NCBI RefSeq assembly: GCF_009755885.1
Contig: NZ_VYIX01000002.1
Coordinates: 540,875-604,874 of the forward strand
From: Brachyspira sp. SAP_772
GTDB taxonomy: Bacteria; Spirochaetota; Brachyspiria; Brachyspirales; Brachyspiraceae
Length of the DNA: 64,000 bases
Reading direction: 5' to 3'
This document shows positions 5,942 to 54,783 of this stretch, piece after piece. The notes beneath the pieces were generated by a model. The model did no database searches. It was not told the DNA's origin and worked only from the letters and a program-made list of their open reading frames with translations. The first letter of the stretch is position 1; each line of letters opens with the position of its first letter. The translations under genes and the position numbers were made by a program.

Positions 5942-8389
5942 TTACTTTCCATTTCTTTGAGCTTTTTTTAGAATATCTGCAATTTCTCTAAGTTTAAGAT
6001 TCTCTGCCATATCTAAAGCAGTATCTCCATCGTCATCTTCTATATTTACATCGGCTCCTTTTTCTACTAGAAATTTAACAAATGATTCATTAGATTTTCT
6101 TGTACAAGCCCACATTAAAGAAGTGTATCCATTATAATCTTGAGCATTAATATCTGCACCTTTTTCTAATAAAACTTCAGCTAATTTTATACGATTTTCC
6201 TGAAAACTTATATTATAAAAACTACCTTCAAGCATACCAAGATATATCAAAGGAGTATATTGGTTTTTATTCTTTATGTTTACATCAGCACCTTGCTCTA
6301 TTAAAAAATGAGCTATTTCAAAGTCTGGCATAGTAGTAAGAGTTTTGTTTAAAGCTGTGTATCCTTCATTATCTTGGGCATTTATATCAGCATTTTTTGA
6401 AACTAAATATTTTATTACGTCTATATTTATTTCCAAACGAGGCTTACATGCTAATATTAAAGCAGTACTTCCTCCTTTCTGAGAGTTTACATCAGCACCG
6501 TTTTCAACTAATAATTTTACTGTTTCTAAATTATTTACACCATACATTAAGGCTGTATTTCCATAATCATCGAAAGCATTTATATTTGCACCTTTTTGTA
6601 TTAGAAGTTCTACCACTTTTGTATTATGAACTCTAGAAGCATACATTAAAGGTGTCTCTCCATGATTATTTTTTACATTTATATCAGCACCTTTTTGTAT
6701 TAGAAGTTCTACCACTTTTGTATTATGAATTCTGGAAGCATACATTAAAGGTGTCTCTCCATGATTATTTTTTACATTTATATCAGCACCTTTTTGTATT
6801 AGAAGTTCTACCACTTTTGTATTATGAATTCTGGAAGCATACATTAAAGGTGTCTCTCCATGATTATTTTTTACATTTATATCTGCACCATTATTTATTA
6901 AAAATTCTGCAGCAGATGAATTTTCATTTTTATAATAATAATATCTAGAGTCAGGATGTTCATTATCTAATGAGAGTAATAGGGGAGTTTCTACTGAGCT
7001 ATATTCAGAATGTGTTTTGGCATTTACATCAGCACCTTTTTCAACTAAAAATTTAACCATATCATAGTCATTTCTTAAAGCTGCTATCATTAAAGGAGTA
7101 TAATCATAATCATAATGCTCCTCACCCTTTATTCTTGATTCTAAGTCAAAACCATTTTCTACTAATACTTTAAACATTTCTCTATTTAGTGCCAATTCTG
7201 TTGTATAAGCTGTATCAAGAAGTGATGCTCCATAATTGTCTTTAGTATTTACATCAGCACCATATTTTATTAATAAATTAAATATTTTTTTAGCATTTTC
7301 TAGCATTTCTTCTTTTTCGTAATGATCATAGCGAATATTATAATATAATACAGTGTTTCCATCATTATCTTTAGTATTTATATTGGCACCATTTTCTAAT
7401 AAAAATTTAACCATTTCATAGTCTCCTATCATAGCAGCGTTCATTAATGCTGTAAGACCGTGTTCATCTTGTGTGTTTATATTTGCACCTTGTTGTATAA
7501 GTAATTTTGAAATATCAAATTTTCCATAATCATTAGCAATCGTTAAAGCAGTTTTCTTTTCATTATTTGCTGTATTAGGATTGGCACCTTTATCAAGCAA
7601 ATATTTAACCATATCATAATCATTTCTTAAAGCTGCTATCATTAAAGGAGTATAATCATAATCAGATATACCCGTCTTTATTCTTGACTCTAAATCAAAA
7701 CCATTTTCAACTAATATTTTAAACATTTCTTTATTTTTATCAAAAGATTCTGAAATTCTATAGGATACATCAAGGAGAGATGCTCCATCATTGTCTTTAG
7801 TATTTACATCAACACCGTATTTTATTAATAAATTAAGTATTTTTATAGCATTTTCTTGTCCGAAACTATCATGCTGAATACTATAATATAATGCAGTTTC
7901 TCCTTCTGTATTTCTAATATTTACATCAGCACCATTTTTTAATAAAAATTCAACCATTTCATAATTTGTATTTCTAGCAGTATACATTAATGCTGTAGCA
8001 CCTGCATTATCTTTAATATTGACATCAGTACCTTCTTCTATAAGTAATTTTGCTATATCATCATATCCCATTAAAGCAGCGTACATTAATGCTGTAAAAC
8101 CGTATTCATCTTGAGCATTTGGATTTGCTCCTTTAGCTAAATATGATTTAACTCCTTCTATGTTATTATATCTTACAGCTGAAAAGAAAGTCTGAGAATA
8201 CATAGGATACATTTTTGTAACTTGAACATATTCATTAGTATTTGTAGTTGTTGGATTAATATATACTTGTTCATTTGTTTGAGTTTGATTAGTTTGAGTA
8301 TTTTCTGTTTGTTTAGTATTGCCGCTGTTACCGCCGCTGCAGGAAATTATCGAAACTATTAAAACAAAAATAGAAATAATATTTTTCAT
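5942..8389 (-). CDS. Large ankyrin-repeat lipoprotein
   Basis: I place the start at the ATG 8387-8389 (815 residues), because it is preceded by a GGGG ribosome site and begins a lipoprotein signal peptide with the lipobox SIISC (Cys17). A longer reading from 8464 would bury this signal. After a Gln/Thr/Asn-rich linker (about residues 20-55) the rest of the protein is about 20 ankyrin repeats with the usual G-TALMYA / LL-GAD-N pattern. Three consecutive repeats are almost identical, and a larger multi-repeat block is also duplicated. Ankyrin arrays bind proteins; anchored on the cell envelope this one may face the periplasm or the host. Surface exposure cannot be told from the sequence. Identical repeats could let the array change length by recombination. 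Confidence 0.88.
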   Translation of the reverse strand: MKNIISIFVLIVSIISCSGGNSGNTKQTENTQTNQTQTNEQVYINPTTTNTNEYVQVTKMYPMYSQTFFSAVRYNNIEGVKSYLAKGANPNAQDEYGFTALMYAALMGYDDIAKLLIEEGTDVNIKDNAGATALMYTARNTNYEMVEFLLKNGADVNIRNTEGETALYYSIQHDSFGQENAIKILNLLIKYGVDVNTKDNDGASLLDVSYRISESFDKNKEMFKILVENGFDLESRIKTGISDYDYTPLMIAALRNDYDMVKYLLDKGANPNTANNEKKTALTIANDYGKFDISKLLIQQGANINTQDEHGLTALMNAAMIGDYEMVKFLLENGANINTKDNDGNTVLYYNIRYDHYEKEEMLENAKKIFNLLIKYGADVNTKDNYGASLLDTAYTTELALNREMFKVLVENGFDLESRIKGEEHYDYDYTPLMIAALRNDYDMVKFLVEKGADVNAKTHSEYSSVETPLLLSLDNEHPDSRYYYYKNENSSAAEFLINNGADINVKNNHGETPLMYASRIHNTKVVELLIQKGADINVKNNHGETPLMYASRIHNTKVVELLIQKGADINVKNNHGETPLMYASRVHNTKVVELLIQKGANINAFDDYGNTALMYGVNNLETVKLLVENGADVNSQKGGSTALILACKPRLEINIDVIKYLVSKNADINAQDNEGYTALNKTLTTMPDFEIAHFLIEQGADVNIKNKNQYTPLIYLGMLEGSFYNISFQENRIKLAEVLLEKGADINAQDYNGYTSLMWACTRKSNESFVKFLVEKGADVNIEDDDGDTALDMAENLKLREIADILKKAQRNGK
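6591..6887 (-). repeat. Three tandem 99-bp near-identical ankyrin-coding repeats
   Basis: The unit starts at 6591, 6690 and 6789 (spacing exactly 99 bp, 33 codons). The copies differ at only a few bases, for instance in the His/Arg-Ile versus Arg-Val codon. The encoded unit contains NVKNNHGETPLMYASR and KVVELLIQKGA. Confidence 0.93.
7030..7860 (-). repeat. Duplicated multi-repeat block inside the ankyrin gene
   Basis: Two blocks of roughly 270 bp (about 7030-7300 and 7580-7850) encode matching series: NLLIKYG-DVNTKD, GASLLD, EMFK-LVENGFDLESRIK and YTPLMIAALRNDYDMVK. They are more diverged than the 99-bp repeats, suggesting an older segmental duplication within the gene. Confidence 0.75.
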
Positions 8390-8471
8390 ATATACCCCAT
8401 ATATCTTAAAACCAATTTGATTGTATATTGAAAAATATTCATTGTCAATAATTATAAATAGCAATCAAGTG

Positions 8472-11601: not shown

Positions 11602-11770
11602 TTTTATTCCTATTTTTTTAATATAAAATTAAATACAAAAATCATTATATTGAAACATATTGGTTTTGTCAATTTATATATTTTATAGATGTATTATTGA
11701 GTTTTTTGTTGACATATTATTTGGTAATATATTTAGATTTTGTTAATGCCGCCTTTTGATTCTTTGTATT

Positions 11771-12051
11771 GTTCTTTTTCCCGCCTTCGCTGTGCGGACT
11801 TCGTCAAAGAACCAAAAGTGCAAGTACTATAGCTTTGTATGTTTGGAATATAAATAAAATGTAAGATAATACCTGTATTTTAAGTAAAAAAATGCAAATA
11901 AAAATAATACTAAATCATAGTAATTATGTTTGATATGTAAGTATAAATTATTAAATTAAACTTAAATATAGCCTTTTTGCTTCTTTGGGTCACGCCACAA
12001 GGGCACTTCCTTCGGTCGCAAAAGAAGTGGGGTGTGGGGCAAAGCCCCACA
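11771..12051. repeat. G+C-rich structured repeat element, copy A
   Basis: This lies in the 616-base gap 11602-12217, otherwise A+T-rich and without a gene. Module 1 (11771-11851) is an inverted repeat GTTCTTT / AAAGAAC around a conserved core with CGCTGTGCGGACTTCGTC, ending in GCTTTGTATGTTTGGAATAT. Module 2 (11971-12051) has an outer stem CTTCTTT / AAAGAAG around a core containing TTCCTTCGGTCGC, and a perfect hairpin TGTGGGGC-AAA-GCCCCACA. Both modules recur inverted at 52804-53143. A 28-codon frame (11746-11832) crosses module 1, but there is no evidence that it is a gene. Confidence 0.85.
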
Positions 12052-12217
12052 AATATTTAAAATTAAAAATATAAAATTTTTAGTATGTACTAAAGTTTAT
12101 CACAAAATAAAAATATTTTAAATACAAAATTATAATATGGCATTCATTGACTTTTTGTATTTGTCTTATATACTATAAATAATAATATATAATATTTAAA
12201 TTAGAGATTTTAATTAA

Positions 12218-13687
12218 ATGTTTATTTATATATTGACTATTATATTTTTTCTATATGTCATATTAATAGCAATAAAAATGCTTCTTGAAAATAGACCGCC
12301 TTATTCTTTTATAGCTTGGCTTACTGTGTTGGTATTTTTGCCATATGTGGGTGCTATTTTTTATTTATTCTTGGGTGTAAATTGGAAAAAATCTAGAAGA
12401 AAACTTTCTGCAAGACTTCCTGAAGATATGATAAAAAAACATTTCTCTTCTTTGCTTGAAGAGCAGATGAATATCATAGACAACATGGGCGGTAATTATG
12501 CCAAACATACTAATTTAGTAAAGCTTGCAATAAAAAGCGGATACTCTCCAATTACTGTTCAAAATCAAGTTTATGTTTTTGATGAGGGTAAAGATTTATT
12601 TGATGATTTAATTAGCAATTTAAAACTCGCTGAAAAAACAATACATATGGAATATTTTATATGGAGAAGCGATGAATTAGGAAATAAAATAAAAGATATA
12701 CTGATAAAAAAGTCCAAAGAGGGAGTTAAGGTTAGGCTTATATTTGACGGACTTGGCTCTATGCTTAGAATAAGCAGAAAATATAAAAAAGAGCTTAGAG
12801 AAAATGGCATAGAGTTTTTATATTATCATGACCCATTTTCTATATTTTGGACTAGATATGTTAATTACCGCAATCACAGAAAGATAGTAGTTATAGATGG
12901 TATAATTTCCTATATGGGCGGAATGAATTTAGGACAGGAATATATTGACGGCGGAAAGAGATTTGCTTCTTGGAAAGACACTCATATGCGTATAGTGGGT
13001 GATGCTTGTAATCTTATACAGAATGTTTTTGTATGCGATTGGCATAATGCTGGCGGAAGAGATTTAGATAATTTGATGGATAATGTGGAAGGTTCTTCAC
13101 TTATGAAGGAATTATTTCCTCCTTCAAAAATAGATAAATACCTACCTATGCAGATAATATCTTCTGGGCCTGATTCTAAATGGGATTCTATACAAAAAAT
13201 TTATTCAAAAATGATAGATGATGCTAAGGAGAGTGTTTATATAGAAAGTCCTTATTTTGTTCCTGATGATGGTTTTTTGCATGATTTGGAGAATGCCGCT
13301 TTATCTGGAATAAATGTCAATTTAATGATTACGGGTAAGCCTGATAAATTAATAGCTTGGTGGGTTGCTCAAACTTATTTTGAGACACTTCTTAATGCGG
13401 GTGTTAATATTTATTTATATGAGAGCGGTTTTTTGCATAGTAAGTTTTGTGTTATAGACGGAAGAATTGTATCTTGTGGAACTTGCAATATGGATATAAG
13501 AAGTTTTTATTTGCATTATGAGATGAATGCGGTTATATATGATATAGATACTGCTTTGGAATTTGAAAGTATTTTTAAAGATGATATTTCAAGGTCTCAT
13601 AAAATAACTATGGAGGAATATCAAAAACAACCTATTTTAATTAGGCTTAGAAATTCAGCTTGTAGAATTATTGCCCCTGTGCTTTAG
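12218..13687 (+). CDS. cls: Cardiolipin synthase (phospholipase D superfamily)
   Basis: Joins two phosphatidylglycerol molecules to make cardiolipin in the inner membrane. 489 residues, the usual length: two N-terminal membrane helices (about 1-20 and 30-52), then two phospholipase D domains, each with an intact HKD motif: HRKIVVIDG (about residue 220) and HSKFCVIDG (about residue 406). The segment RPPYSFIAWLTVL between the helices is typical of ClsA. The ATG has only a weak ribosome site (TTAGAGA). The gene starts just after the repeat island and is followed after 20 bases by the leucine-rich protein gene, probably in one transcript. Confidence 0.95.
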   Translation: MFIYILTIIFFLYVILIAIKMLLENRPPYSFIAWLTVLVFLPYVGAIFYLFLGVNWKKSRRKLSARLPEDMIKKHFSSLLEEQMNIIDNMGGNYAKHTNLVKLAIKSGYSPITVQNQVYVFDEGKDLFDDLISNLKLAEKTIHMEYFIWRSDELGNKIKDILIKKSKEGVKVRLIFDGLGSMLRISRKYKKELRENGIEFLYYHDPFSIFWTRYVNYRNHRKIVVIDGIISYMGGMNLGQEYIDGGKRFASWKDTHMRIVGDACNLIQNVFVCDWHNAGGRDLDNLMDNVEGSSLMKELFPPSKIDKYLPMQIISSGPDSKWDSIQKIYSKMIDDAKESVYIESPYFVPDDGFLHDLENAALSGINVNLMITGKPDKLIAWWVAQTYFETLLNAGVNIYLYESGFLHSKFCVIDGRIVSCGTCNMDIRSFYLHYEMNAVIYDIDTALEFESIFKDDISRSHKITMEEYQKQPILIRLRNSACRIIAPVL

Positions 13688-26438: not shown

Positions 26439-27614
26439 TTATATTTCTACATCCTTAGAATAATCTATTCCTTCAACTTCAAATCCATGCATATTCATAT
26501 AATCTTTTCTAAACATAGACATATCAGCTAACTCTTTTAAATTATCCTGATTAAGTATTTTCCACACATTTAATACTTCTTCTTGAACATCTTTTTTAAG
26601 TTCCCAATCATCAAGCCTAATTCTATTAACAGAGTCTAAAGGTATATCGCCTCCATTATATAATTTATCACTTAATAATCTATACATCTGCTCAATACAG
26701 CCTTCATGTAATCCTTTAGCCTTCATTATTTTAAATAATATTCCAATATAAAGAGGCACTGTAGGTATAACAGAAGAAGCCCTTGTTACAACAGCTTTAT
26801 TAACAGATATATAAGCATGTCCGTTTATCTTTTTTTGCATCTCTTTATCAAGTCTATGAGCTGTGTTTTCTATATCGTCTTTAGCTCTTCCAATAGTTCC
26901 GTCTCTGTAAACTGCTTTAGTGATTTCTGGTCCTATATAAGAATAAGCTATATTAATTGCATTTTCTGCAAGTAAATCTGCTTCAAGTAAAGCATTAGTC
27001 CAAAGCTCCCAGTCTTCTCCTCCCATAACCTTTACAGTGTTTTTTATATCTTCATCGTTAGCAGGCTCTATAGAAACATTTAATAACTCTTCAGTCATAA
27101 AATCTATTCCCATACCTTCATATTTTTTTCCTATAGGCTTTAATGTAGAACGATGCAAAATACCAGTTTTTTCATCTGTTCTCACAGGAGCAGCTAAACT
27201 ATATATAAATAAATCTATCTTTCCATCAAAAAATTTTTTAGCTTCTTTTATAACTTCTTCTTTTGAAGCATTTAAAAAAGCGTCCAAATTAAGACTTACT
27301 TCTTCTATACCATCTCTTTTAGCAAACTCACTGAAAGCCATATTATTATACCAGCCCGGTGTAGCTGTTCTTCTCTCTGTAGCTGCTTTTTCTAATGAAA
27401 CTCCCATAGTTTTAGCTCCAAGTCCATAAGCTATAGCAATTCTGCTAGCAAGGCCGTATCCTCCAGAGCTTCCTAATATAAGAGCATTTTTTACATTTGA
27501 TTTTATTTTTCCTTTTGATTTTACATAATTAATTTGATTTTCTACTTCCTTTCTGCATCCTAATGGGTGAGCTGTAGTACATATATTATTCAATATTTTA
27601 GGCGCTACTATCAT
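26439..27614 (-). CDS. fabV: FabV-type enoyl-ACP/CoA reductase, paralogue 1
   Basis: NADH-dependent trans-2-enoyl-ACP (or CoA) reductase, the last step of fatty acid elongation; FabV enzymes are generally tolerant of triclosan. 391 residues. Motifs: the N-terminal CTTAHPLGCRKEVENQI, the nucleotide-binding ALILGSSGGYGLASRIAIAY, and the catalytic Tyr-X8-Lys in YSYIGPEITKAVYRDGTIG. The ATG has AAAGGAGAT. A second complete paralogue lies at 28802, with an FkbM methyltransferase on the opposite strand between them. Confidence 0.96.
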   Translation of the reverse strand: MIVAPKILNNICTTAHPLGCRKEVENQINYVKSKGKIKSNVKNALILGSSGGYGLASRIAIAYGLGAKTMGVSLEKAATERRTATPGWYNNMAFSEFAKRDGIEEVSLNLDAFLNASKEEVIKEAKKFFDGKIDLFIYSLAAPVRTDEKTGILHRSTLKPIGKKYEGMGIDFMTEELLNVSIEPANDEDIKNTVKVMGGEDWELWTNALLEADLLAENAINIAYSYIGPEITKAVYRDGTIGRAKDDIENTAHRLDKEMQKKINGHAYISVNKAVVTRASSVIPTVPLYIGILFKIMKAKGLHEGCIEQMYRLLSDKLYNGGDIPLDSVNRIRLDDWELKKDVQEEVLNVWKILNQDNLKELADMSMFRKDYMNMHGFEVEGIDYSKDVEI

Positions 27615-28801: not shown

Positions 28802-29980
28802 TTATATTTGAACGTCAGCGTTATAATCAATGCCGTCTAAACCAAAGCCGTGAAGATGTAAATACTCATCTCTAAATTGATTTAAATCTGCATTTTCTTT
28901 TAATGTAGTATTATCTTTAATTTTATCCCAAGCAAGAGCAACCTCTTTTTGTACGTCTTCTCTAAGCTCCCAGTCATCTAATCTTAATCTTTGTTTTTCA
29001 TCAAGTATAAAGCCTTTGTCAGAATAGATTTTTTCTGCGAATTGTCTATACATTTGCTCTATACAGCCTTCATGAATATTTTTATCTTTCATTACTTTAA
29101 ACAATATGCTTATATACAAAGGCATAGCAGGTATAACAGCAGAAGCTCTAGTAACAACCGCCTTAGCAACACTTACATAAGCATGACCATGAAGTTTTTC
29201 TTGCATCATCTTATCAATATTTATAGCAGTCTCTTCTAAATCATCTTTAGCCCTTCCAATAGTGCCGTCTCTATATATAGCCTTAGTCATCTCTGGTCCT
29301 ATATAAGAATAAGCCAAAGTTAAAGCATTCTCAGAGAGCATATCTTCTTTTATTAGAGCCTCAATCCATAATCTCCAATCATCTCCGCCCATTACTTTTA
29401 CAGTAGCTTTAATCTCTTCTTCACTAGCAGCAGGCATGTTTACCTGTATAAGCTCTTCAGTCATAAAATCAACACCAAATCCGCTATAATCTTTTCCTAT
29501 AGGTTTTAAAGTAGAACGATATGTAATGCCCTCTTTTTCATCTTTTCTAATACCAGTAGCCAAACTATATATAACACAGTCTATTTTGCCATCAAAAAAG
29601 TTTTTAGCTTCTTTAATAATATTTTCTTTTGAAGATTCTAAAAAAGCATCTCCTACTATAGTTTTTTCTTTAATGCCGTCTCTTTTAGCAAACTCACTAA
29701 AAGCCATATTGTTATACCAGCCCGGTGTAGCAGTTTTTTCTTCTGATGCTGCTCTTTCAAATGATACGCTTAAAGTATTTGCATTCATACCATATGCTAA
29801 CACTATTCTGCTTGCAAGACCATATCCGCCAGACCCTCCAAGTATTAAAGCGTTTTTTATGTTTGACTTTATCTTTCCTTTTGATTTAACATAGTTAATC
29901 TGATTTTCTACTTCTTTTTTGCATCCTAATGGATGAGAAGTTCTGCATACATTATTTGCTATTTGAGGTTTTACTACCAT
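28802..29980 (-). CDS. fabV: FabV-type enoyl-ACP/CoA reductase, paralogue 2
   Basis: Full-length second copy. Motifs CRTSHPLGCKKEVENQI, ALILGGSGGYGLASRIVLAY and YSYIGPEMTKAIYRDGTIG match paralogue 1 throughout. I chose the ATG at 29978-29980 (392 residues) instead of the one two codons upstream: AGAGAGGA is 9 bases from it, only 3 from the first, and MVVKPQIANNVC then aligns with MIVAPKILNNIC of the first copy from residue 1. Both copies keep the active-site Tyr-X8-Lys, so both should work. They may differ in ACP versus CoA substrate, as some related proteins act as trans-2-enoyl-CoA reductases in butyrate or wax-ester routes. Confidence 0.96.
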   Translation of the reverse strand: MVVKPQIANNVCRTSHPLGCKKEVENQINYVKSKGKIKSNIKNALILGGSGGYGLASRIVLAYGMNANTLSVSFERAASEEKTATPGWYNNMAFSEFAKRDGIKEKTIVGDAFLESSKENIIKEAKNFFDGKIDCVIYSLATGIRKDEKEGITYRSTLKPIGKDYSGFGVDFMTEELIQVNMPAASEEEIKATVKVMGGDDWRLWIEALIKEDMLSENALTLAYSYIGPEMTKAIYRDGTIGRAKDDLEETAINIDKMMQEKLHGHAYVSVAKAVVTRASAVIPAMPLYISILFKVMKDKNIHEGCIEQMYRQFAEKIYSDKGFILDEKQRLRLDDWELREDVQKEVALAWDKIKDNTTLKENADLNQFRDEYLHLHGFGLDGIDYNADVQI

Positions 29981-30110
29981 AATCATTAATCCTCTCTTTA
30001 ATTTTTAATTAATTTTTTATTTTACATTAAGGATATATCATATTATATATTTTTCAATAGCAAATATATGATAATTAGTCTTTTTATTGTTACAAAATAC
30101 ACTTTTTTTA

Positions 30111-50602: not shown

Positions 50603-52633
<2,031 letters not shown>

Positions 52634-52720: not shown

Positions 52721-52906
52721 ATGTTCTTAGATTTGCCTTCAACATTAAAAAAAGTAGCTTTTAAGCATATAAAAAAAATACAAATATTATTTTATATTAA
52801 TACATATTCCAAACATACAAAGTTACAATACTTGCATTTTTTGCAACTTTTTGACGAAGTCCGCACAGCGAGAGCGACAAAAAAGTTGAATAAAAAACTT
52901 ATATAA
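52721..52906 (+). other. Doubtful short reading frame running into the repeat element
   Basis: An ATG with a good TAGGAGAT ribosome site opens 61 codons beginning MFLDLPSTLKKVAFKHIKKI, but from about codon 28 on the frame is repeat-element sequence (52804 onward). It could be the start of a gene cut off by insertion of the element, or chance. No homology is recognised. Confidence 0.25.
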
Positions 52907-53143
52907 AAGATATAGTTATTTCAGAATATACTGAAAATTTTAACTTTATTTATTTTAGTTGTTTGCAGGGCCTTGCCCCGCACCCCACTTCTTTTGCGAC
53001 CGAAGGGAGTGTCGGAGACGTGGCCCAAAGAAGCAAAAGGACTACATTGTTTAGCTTTAAATGTTGGTATTACAATATATTTTATACATATTCCAAACAT
53101 ACAAAGCTATAACATTTGTACTTTTTGCTATGGGAAAAAGTTG
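52804..53143. repeat. G+C-rich structured repeat element, copy B (inverted relative to copy A)
   Basis: This lies in the 590-base gap 52628-53217. Module 1 (52804-52888) carries AAACATACAAAG, the core GACGAAGTCCGCACAGCG and stem CAACTTTTT / AAAAAGTTG. Module 2 (52964-53040) carries the hairpin TGCAGGGC-CTT-GCCCCGCA and the core GCGACCGAAGGGAGTGTC. A second, loop-deleted module 1 (53088-53143) follows, with the same ATATTCCAAACATACAAAG. Relative to copy A the stem bases are changed on both sides so that pairing is kept. Confidence 0.85.
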
Positions 53144-53217: not shown

Positions 53218-54783
53218 TTATTTACTATAATCAATATCATTTCTATAACAAAACTCTATACCCACACTGTCATTTTCTTTTGCAAGCTTTATCAAGTACT
53301 TTTCCATTTTTGGTTTTAATTTATCATTAGATATTTTGTACGCTTTTTCAAAATTTTCTAAAGATTCAGATTTTAATTTTTTATATTCTTCATCTGAAAT
53401 ACTTCCTTTTTGAATGTTGGCAAGTATATTTTTAATATATCCTATACTGTTAAAAGTTTCTGGTATTTCTTTTCCTAATTCTTCAACTTTACAAAAATCT
53501 TTTAAGCAGTCATTATACATTTTAACTGCTTTTTTTATATTTCCGTTATATCTTTCAATATTAGCAAGTTTAGTTTTAGCATATCCTCTAGTGTCATATA
53601 TTTCAGCATTATAATTAACTATTTTAATACCCTTACTACAATACTCTATAGATTCATTTAATAACTCTTTTGCTTTTGAAATATTATTATTTTTCAAGTC
53701 AATATTTGCTAATTTAATTTTACAGAAGCCTATTTGATTATAAGCATGTATATCACTTTTGTATGTTTCTATGCATTTACAAAAATCTTTAATCGCTTCC
53801 TCATATTGCTGTAAATTTATTTTAGCATCTGCTCTATTATAATAAGCATATAAATCATTATGATCTAATTCTATAGCCTTATCATAATCTTTTATAGCTT
53901 CCTCATACTGCTGTAAATTAAGTTTAGCATTTCCTCTACAAAAATAATCTAATGAATCATTATTATTTAATTCTATATCTTTATCATAATCTTTTATAGC
54001 TTCCTCATACTTCTGTAAATTAAATTTAGCAGTTCCTCTATAAAAATAAGCTAATGGATCATTATTATTTAATTCTATAGCTTTATCATAATCTTTTATA
54101 GCTTCTTCATACTGATACAAATCAGCTTTAGCTTTTCCTTTATAAAAATAAGCTAATGAATCATTATTATTTAATTCTATGGCTTTGTTATAATCTTTGA
54201 TTGCTTCTTCATACTGATACAAATCTGCTTTAGCATTCCCTCTATTATTATAATATTCTGGATTGCTGCTGTCTAATTCTATGGCTTTATCATAATCTTT
54301 AACCGCTTCTTTATACTGTTGCAGCTCTGTTTTAGCAATTCCTCTGTTATAATAAGCATAAATATAATTAGGTTCTAACTCTATAGTTTTACTGTAATAT
54401 ACTATAGATTCTTTATATTTTCCTTCATCATAAAATTTAAGTGCCTTATCAAAATAATATCTTGAATCTTTTCCGGAGTCATTTTCTATTAATGAATTAT
54501 TATTAATAAAATTATGTATATCTAAATCATTTTCAGTTCTTTTTAATGCCTGCTTTGCTTCTTTATAATTAGGATTTAATTCTATGGCTTTGTTTAAATT
54601 TCTTATAGCTTCCTCATATTGTTTTAAATGATTTTTATTTATTCCTATAAGATAATAAATTTTATAATTATCTTCTTGATAAAACAAAATTTTTTCAAGA
54701 TATTCTATAGATAATTCAAAATTATTATTATCAAATGCTTCTTTAGATTTACCTAATAATTCTTTAATAATATCATCAGCCAT
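53218..54783 (-). CDS. TPR-repeat protein
   Basis: 521 residues, no signal peptide. Residues about 7-100 and 105-330 form roughly ten tetratricopeptide repeats of 34 residues (pattern AYYNRGIAKTELQQYKEAVK and DYDKAIELN-N), several near-identical; the C-terminal 180 residues continue with more diverged helical pairs. TPR arrays bind partner proteins. This one is probably cytoplasmic with no known partner. The middle repeats are so alike at DNA level that copy number could vary. AGGAAT ribosome site. Confidence 0.88.
   Translation of the reverse strand: MADDIIKELLGKSKEAFDNNNFELSIEYLEKILFYQEDNYKIYYLIGINKNHLKQYEEAIRNLNKAIELNPNYKEAKQALKRTENDLDIHNFINNNSLIENDSGKDSRYYFDKALKFYDEGKYKESIVYYSKTIELEPNYIYAYYNRGIAKTELQQYKEAVKDYDKAIELDSSNPEYYNNRGNAKADLYQYEEAIKDYNKAIELNNNDSLAYFYKGKAKADLYQYEEAIKDYDKAIELNNNDPLAYFYRGTAKFNLQKYEEAIKDYDKDIELNNNDSLDYFCRGNAKLNLQQYEEAIKDYDKAIELDHNDLYAYYNRADAKINLQQYEEAIKDFCKCIETYKSDIHAYNQIGFCKIKLANIDLKNNNISKAKELLNESIEYCSKGIKIVNYNAEIYDTRGYAKTKLANIERYNGNIKKAVKMYNDCLKDFCKVEELGKEIPETFNSIGYIKNILANIQKGSISDEEYKKLKSESLENFEKAYKISNDKLKPKMEKYLIKLAKENDSVGIEFCYRNDIDYSK

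Follow-up and report, generated by a model that had tools for sequence, protein, structure and literature searches.

Modular hairpin repeats of Brachyspira evolve by compensatory changes and are probably non-autonomous mobile elements

We analysed a stretch of 64,000 nucleotides from the genome of Brachyspira sp. SAP_772 (the window; its genome is referred to as G000, other genomes compared carry other G-numbers, and sampled stretches carry L-numbers). The window holds two copies, A and B, of a repeat made of hairpin modules. In the stems of this repeat it is the base pairing that is conserved, not the sequence, and its sites are stable but their occupants are not: related species keep the repeat in the same gaps, often as another copy and in either orientation. 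We consider it probable that this is a mobile repeat which is non-coding and non-autonomous, present in many copies and restricted to the genus, and in which the modules M1-S1-M2 stand between AT-rich inverted ends. Our best reading likens it to BOX, REPIN and MITE elements, as a non-autonomous mobile repeat whose cassettes are exchanged. Bacteria commonly carry small palindromic repeats, and the assignment of the present one to a new family within this known kind of mobile repeat is well supported. The family is unusual for its modular nested hairpins, its strand-specific covariation, and the swapped and flipped occupants of its conserved sites.

The repeat unit consists of a hairpin module M1 with two main stem types, a spacer S1, a double hairpin M2 (hairpin 1 and hairpin 2), and the AT-rich ends alpha (TATACTGAAAATTTTTAAGTTTGTCAA) and beta (CTAAACAACTATATTTTGTCA). 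S1 is AT-rich, occurs in several types, is mostly 80–110 bases long, and gave no structure in consensus folding. The loops may contain nested hairpins, e.g. ACCTAAAGGTACTTCCTACGGTCGC or ACCCTACGGGCACGCTTCGC. Reversed M1 resembles M2 (TGCA..CTTTTTGSTTCTTT) as judged by eye alone. There are 88 matches to copy A across the whole of G000, and 275 modules in 144 groups were detected when 1.26 Mb of DNA from three genomes (the window and L121–L180) were searched with a profile. As these stretches were mostly picked around copies, with synteny blocks in addition, densities derived from them are biased, whereas the whole-genome M2 counts are not. The groups alternate as M1-M2-M1-M2, and orientation is nearly always common to all modules of a group. 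In 143 arrays, alpha was present at 10 left and 21 right flanks (0 and 0 in shuffled flanks) and beta at 28 left and 13 right flanks (3 and 0 in shuffled flanks). Both are enriched on both sides, with a recognised end at both sides in only ∼8 of the 143 arrays. A further palindromic spacer type (CCGCACGGTAATGTTATG...CGTGCGGGG), which may be a separate repeat family, replaces S1 before some M2 modules (the L127:14818 region, L128:18287–18388 and L174:9689–9914).

The preliminary description of the window had reported that copies A and B share their cores but differ in their stems, which nevertheless stay paired. All the strings quoted there are present in the two copies, and the shared cores are exact. 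In copy A, on the plus strand, M1 (11771–11819; defined by sequence and covariation) has the outer stem GTTCTTT/AAAGAAC (GTTCTTTTT at 11771–11779, AAAGAAC at 11806–11812), the mini-hairpins CGC-TGT-GCG (11788–11796) and GAC-TTC-GTC (11797–11805), and then AAAAGTGCAAG. It is followed by the spacers S1a (TAGCTTTGTATGTTTGGAATAT...) and S1b (AATAATACTAAATCATAG...; together 11820–11969), which are joined at TGCA and conserved in sequence, no consensus fold being found for them. M2 (11970–12051; E 2.1e-12) comprises hairpin 1, GCTTCTTT (11979–11986) and AAAGAAGT (12021–12028) with a nested ACTTCCTTCGGTCGC loop, and hairpin 2, TGTGGGGC-AAA-GCCCCACA (12033–12051; arms 12033–12040 and 12044–12051). An AT-rich alpha end (AAAATTTTTAGTATGTAC) lies at 12073–12090 on the same strand. 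A truncated M2 left arm, AATGCCGCCTTTTGATTCTTTG (11745–11766, plus strand; identified by sequence), is fused directly to M1 and is the trace of an earlier module at this site; the orthologous site in G014 reads AATGCAGCCTTTTGGTTATTTG.

Copy B, on the minus strand, is a three-module array M1-M2-M1 whose outermost M1 is without half of its right arm. The first M1 (53081–53143) has the left arm CAACTTTTT, a right arm shortened to AAAAAG, and then the GTATGTTTGGAATATG spacer. M2 (52956–53048; E 9.2e-14) contains hairpin 1 and hairpin 2, TGCGGGGC-AAG-GCCCTGCA (52982–52964), and the second M1 (52801–52888) has CAACTTTTTT (52888–52879) paired with AAAAAGTTG (52852–52844), the core GCTGTGCGGACTTCGTC, and then spacer. 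The stem CAACTTTTT/AAAAAGTTG (52888–52844) differs from that of copy A and still pairs, and TGCGGGGC/GCCCTGCA replaces TGTGGGGC/GCCCCACA in the same sense. The latter copy B stem includes a G.T wobble that pairs solely on the strand named in the preliminary description.

Copy A lies between divergent genes, and its site is anchored by the gene of a PLD-domain protein (cardiolipin-synthase-like; 12218–13687, plus strand; Pfam PLDc_2, PLDc and PLDc_N, and orthologues). The anchor of site B is the gene of an NAD-dependent DNA ligase (50633–52627, minus strand; Pfam DNA_ligase_aden and others, and orthologues). A TPR protein gene with 102-base internal repeats (53218–54783, minus strand; Pfam TPR) ends 75 bases before copy B.

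We measured covariation over many copies. MAFFT misaligned hairpin 2 across the mixed AAA-loop and CTAG-loop types; the CTAG type was aligned alone, and the rest was re-aligned by covariance model. The resulting alignment of 146 distinct M2 copies leans to the structure because it was fitted to that model; in it, 96.7% of 2833 cells were paired, the covariation score was 0.267 compared with 0.112 when shuffled (0/500) and 0.022–0.048 in slid controls, and two-sided changes, spread over ten pairs, filled 302 cells compared with a shuffled expectation of 103.5. In the 19 CTAG-type copies, 98.5% of cells pair, with a score of 0.260 (0.126 shuffled, ≤0.052 slid). Double changes on the same branch (FastTree tree, parsimony) numbered 64 against a null mean of 22.9 and a maximum of 37 in 500, and 57 of them kept the pair. 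An M2 stem pair was C-G in 88 of the 146 copies, G-C in 48 and broken in 9. Stems of either type occur with TAT, GTG and GCG loops, which indicates that the arms stay matched while loops are exchanged. For M1, left and right arm types matched in 96 of the 102 scorable copies from the 1.26 Mb of three genomes (Fisher p 4e-22), GTTC/GAAC being found in 49, CAAC/GTTG in 47 and mixed arms in 6. The three-base mini-hairpin of M1 also covaries across copies (CGC/GCG and CAC/GTG). The selection on structure that had been proposed from two copies is thus borne out over ∼150, far above shuffled, slid and tree-aware controls, and covariation beyond phylogeny, the general mark of a structured RNA, is present.

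M2 was detected by covariance model in 23 of 26 genomes of the genus. With 150 candidates scored per genome, the larger counts are minimum values: G000 has at least 149, G014 145, G012 144 and G011 120, and the numbers descend to 6 in G017. No M2 was detected by the same model in G001, G003 and G019. Beyond the genus, nothing credible was found in 172 other genomes of the phylum, which gave three weak singletons, and phage and plasmid collections gave no match. Rfam gave no match above the gathering score in the window, and we found no description of the repeat in Brachyspira genome papers in the literature outside subscription journals. Along C1 of G011 the M2 copies are very uneven, with none in ∼0.40–0.71 Mb and 16 sites in 2.43–2.55 Mb.

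Next, we compared orthologous sites. Site A is the intergenic gap that precedes the PLD gene. G000, G014 and G011 each have a copy there, G012 has an inverted one and G013 an inverted M1 remnant, and 19 other congeners had no module at this site. The inverted G012 copy best matches copy A of G000 (212 bits compared with 113 for the next site), which shows that it flipped in place between two close species. It contains only the S1b version of the spacer, inverted, and homology between the two genomes resumes at the alpha end. We counted 32 orthologous pairs in which two of the genomes G000, G011 and G014 both had a copy. With ranks computed within the sampled parts of each genome, 10 had the same orientation and were best matches in at least one direction, 12 had the same orientation and were not best matches, and 10 were inverted and never in the top 3. 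In three inspected cases, the outer AT-rich end was common to both and the interior was swapped. The syntenic block around the window, which is contiguous and was not picked for copies, has five G011 groups in gaps that are occupied in G000. Some orthologous sites are empty; those examined showed no clean element boundary or target-site duplication, AT-rich flanks and divergence limiting this comparison. At site B of G012 (L113), the repeat is missing, and its place before the ligase gene is taken by unrelated AT-rich sequence containing small reversed ORFs. A terminator-like hairpin, ATGGGCTTGGC...GCTAAGCCCAT, is uninterrupted in a relative (L164:1168–1253), whereas at L137:13537–13594 its loop is split by an insertion that carries M2.

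These data can be accommodated if a trans-acting protein recognises the hairpins as single-stranded DNA or RNA, and such recognition would maintain their complementarity. New cassettes would enter, or replace old ones, at sites marked by palindromic ends, which would produce the random orientation and the build-up of arrays and mosaics. The exchange across the palindromic ends might proceed via transposition into old copies or via recombination on inverted ends. A more far-reaching proposal is a new kind of cassette system. In it, docking sites with palindromic AT-rich ends would be fixed between genes, and their hairpin cassettes would be exchanged from site to site and flipped by a factor that reads single-stranded hairpins and is neither Y1 nor reverse transcriptase. 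We put this forward tentatively, as a possibility of limited weight.

We then asked on which strand the hairpins are constrained. In a G-C pair, a C->T change gives G.U on the named strand, while G->A gives A.C there and G.U on the other strand, and neither change is favoured in the absence of selection. In variable M2 pairs we counted 118 G.U compared with 19 A.C (cells, not events). This excess among one-sided changes indicates that the constraint on M2 acts on a single strand in one sense, G.U pairs being tolerated on that strand alone. The plus strand folded more stably in 119 of 138 M2 copies, and four wobbles are near-invariant among the 146 (U.G in 138, 139 and 121, and G.U in 143). M1 showed no clear strand asymmetry, and therefore the single-strand argument rests on M2. 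The asymmetry favours recognition of the M2 plus strand as RNA or single-stranded DNA. Copies gave no clear signal of replication-strand bias in G011, where the origin is uncertain; this counts against our best reading, because a lagging-strand single-stranded DNA transposon predicts such a bias.

A structured RNA with a host function (e.g. in mRNA stability, in attenuation or in the sequestration of a protein), with transcription at many loci and only incidental mobility, is the strongest of the alternatives, and we think it unlikely. The strand asymmetry of M2 and its conserved U.G and G.U pairs are what would be expected of an RNA, and an action through their transcripts has been proposed for REP and BOX repeats (PMC3733652, PMC3049150). 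However, the copies are intergenic and, between co-directional genes, 29 groups run in the same direction and 31 in the opposite one; this indifference argues against a sense-strand regulatory RNA. The very unequal copy number with total absence from three congeners, the swapping and inversion of occupants at conserved sites, and the lack of an Rfam match in the window also speak against it, and promoter-like matches in the two loci are just modestly above those in shuffles. The preliminary description had offered a structured RNA and a transposable hairpin recognised by an unseen transposase side by side. The transposable hairpin is the better fit on presence and absence, arrays, mosaicism, inversion and random gene orientation, and the M2 strand asymmetry still lends some weight to the RNA proposal.

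It is less probable still that the palindromes are passive, their arms being matched by DNA template switching in the hairpin (quasi-palindrome correction) with neither selection nor a recognising protein. A single event of this sort would alter both partners of a pair, and any palindrome would be subject to it, which agrees with the matched M1 arms and the covarying three-base mini-hairpins. But the correction should erase G.T mismatches, and four M2 wobbles are near-invariant; it also has no strand preference, and the G.U to A.C asymmetry of M2 argues against a strand-blind process.

Transcription terminators, Rho-independent or bidirectional, are a very improbable explanation. The 114 groups occupy 39 convergent, 60 co-directional and 15 divergent gaps, against a background of 105, 334 and 154 (p 5.6e-5), so that convergent gaps are enriched (39/114 compared with 105/593, p 2e-4) and divergent gaps depleted (p 0.003). 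The enrichment between convergent genes and the one copy in the loop of a terminator-like hairpin would suit terminators. However, neither window locus has a terminator-like site, the sequence after the hairpins is A-rich and not T-rich, copy A lies between divergent genes, and an orientation bias is absent. This distribution over gaps also counts in favour of the mobile repeat. The pneumococcal repeats BOX, RUP and SPRITE show the same convergent excess, which was taken there to indicate that they are mobile parasites (PMC3049150).

Even less credible is that the repeat belongs to the REP/REPIN or IS200/IS605-type elements, with a Y1 (RAYT) transposase to move it. The repeat is inverted, hairpin-forming, intergenic and clustered as they are, and REPINs too show compensatory hairpin changes (PMC3116915). 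But the transposase domain PF01797 was found in 0 of 26 congeneric genomes, in a search whose controls matched in 5 of 14, and the base of the stem showed neither a GTAG nor a CGTC tag. The transposase of the earlier proposal was thus sought as Y1/RAYT and not found. A reverse transcriptase was rejected as the driver, being absent from G000 and from most repeat-rich genomes, and a search of these two families yielded no mobilising factor. M1-M2 gaps were also listed for an autonomous copy with a gene between the modules, and no recurrent candidate was carried forward.

Decayed protein-coding genes can be set aside: a few ORFs of 80–100 codons overlap arrays, but six array-overlapping ORFs had no Pfam match, the constraint falls on pairing, and loops of 9, 10, 31, 34 and 55 bases break any frame.

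Returning to the mobile repeat, its likeness to BOX of Streptococcus pneumoniae (boxA-boxB-boxC) is architectural: both are modular small repeats with a variable number of modules, predicted RNA stem-loops and a convergent-gap excess, but BOX differs by description in sequence and modules, its ends resemble an IS of the same host, and its description does not mention that occupants of conserved sites are exchanged or inverted (PMC3049150). REPINs, REP doublets accompanied by RAYT, similarly form inverted hairpin pairs in intergenic clusters with compensatory stem changes (PMC3116915), whereas the Brachyspira repeat has a much larger modular unit with nested hairpins and, in the genomes searched, lacks the Y1 (TnpA-REP/RAYT) gene and the tags that go with them. 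Bacterial MITEs (Correia, Nezha, QMITE2) are non-coding and intergenic, with AT-rich inverted ends and stable folded transcripts (PMC10969869). The present repeat is likewise short, non-coding, intergenic and dispersed, but it has a GC-rich covarying interior in an AT-rich genome, and neither a target-site duplication (at the empty sites examined, with the limits given above) nor a parent IS (among the Y1 and reverse transcriptase families) was found. Mosaic intergenic arrays of Neisseria with dRS3 (CGTC-1) also interleave palindromic units with other repeats (PMC3733652); the Brachyspira modules are unrelated to dRS3 by eye, longer and covarying.

The GC clusters or double-hairpin elements of fungal mitochondria are alike by description, with GC-rich double hairpins in an AT-rich genome and nested insertions, but are organellar. 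To our knowledge, neither the mover nor the reason for paired stems has been established for repeat families without a RAYT gene. How the present family spreads and what its hairpins do can be tested directly, since its compensatory evolution is clear, its copies number ∼150 or more per genome, congeners free of the repeat serve as natural controls, and occupants change and flip at orthologous sites. Recombination and assembly problems in Brachyspira genomes also have a hidden source in this repeat, which is a possible high-resolution typing marker.

Repeats of other kinds were also seen in the window. A gene at 5942–8464 (minus strand) has many degenerate 99-base repeats, ankyrin-like by period alone, and two paralogous genes (26439–27614 and 28802–29986, minus strand), 2366 bases apart, are ∼75–79% alike in parts.
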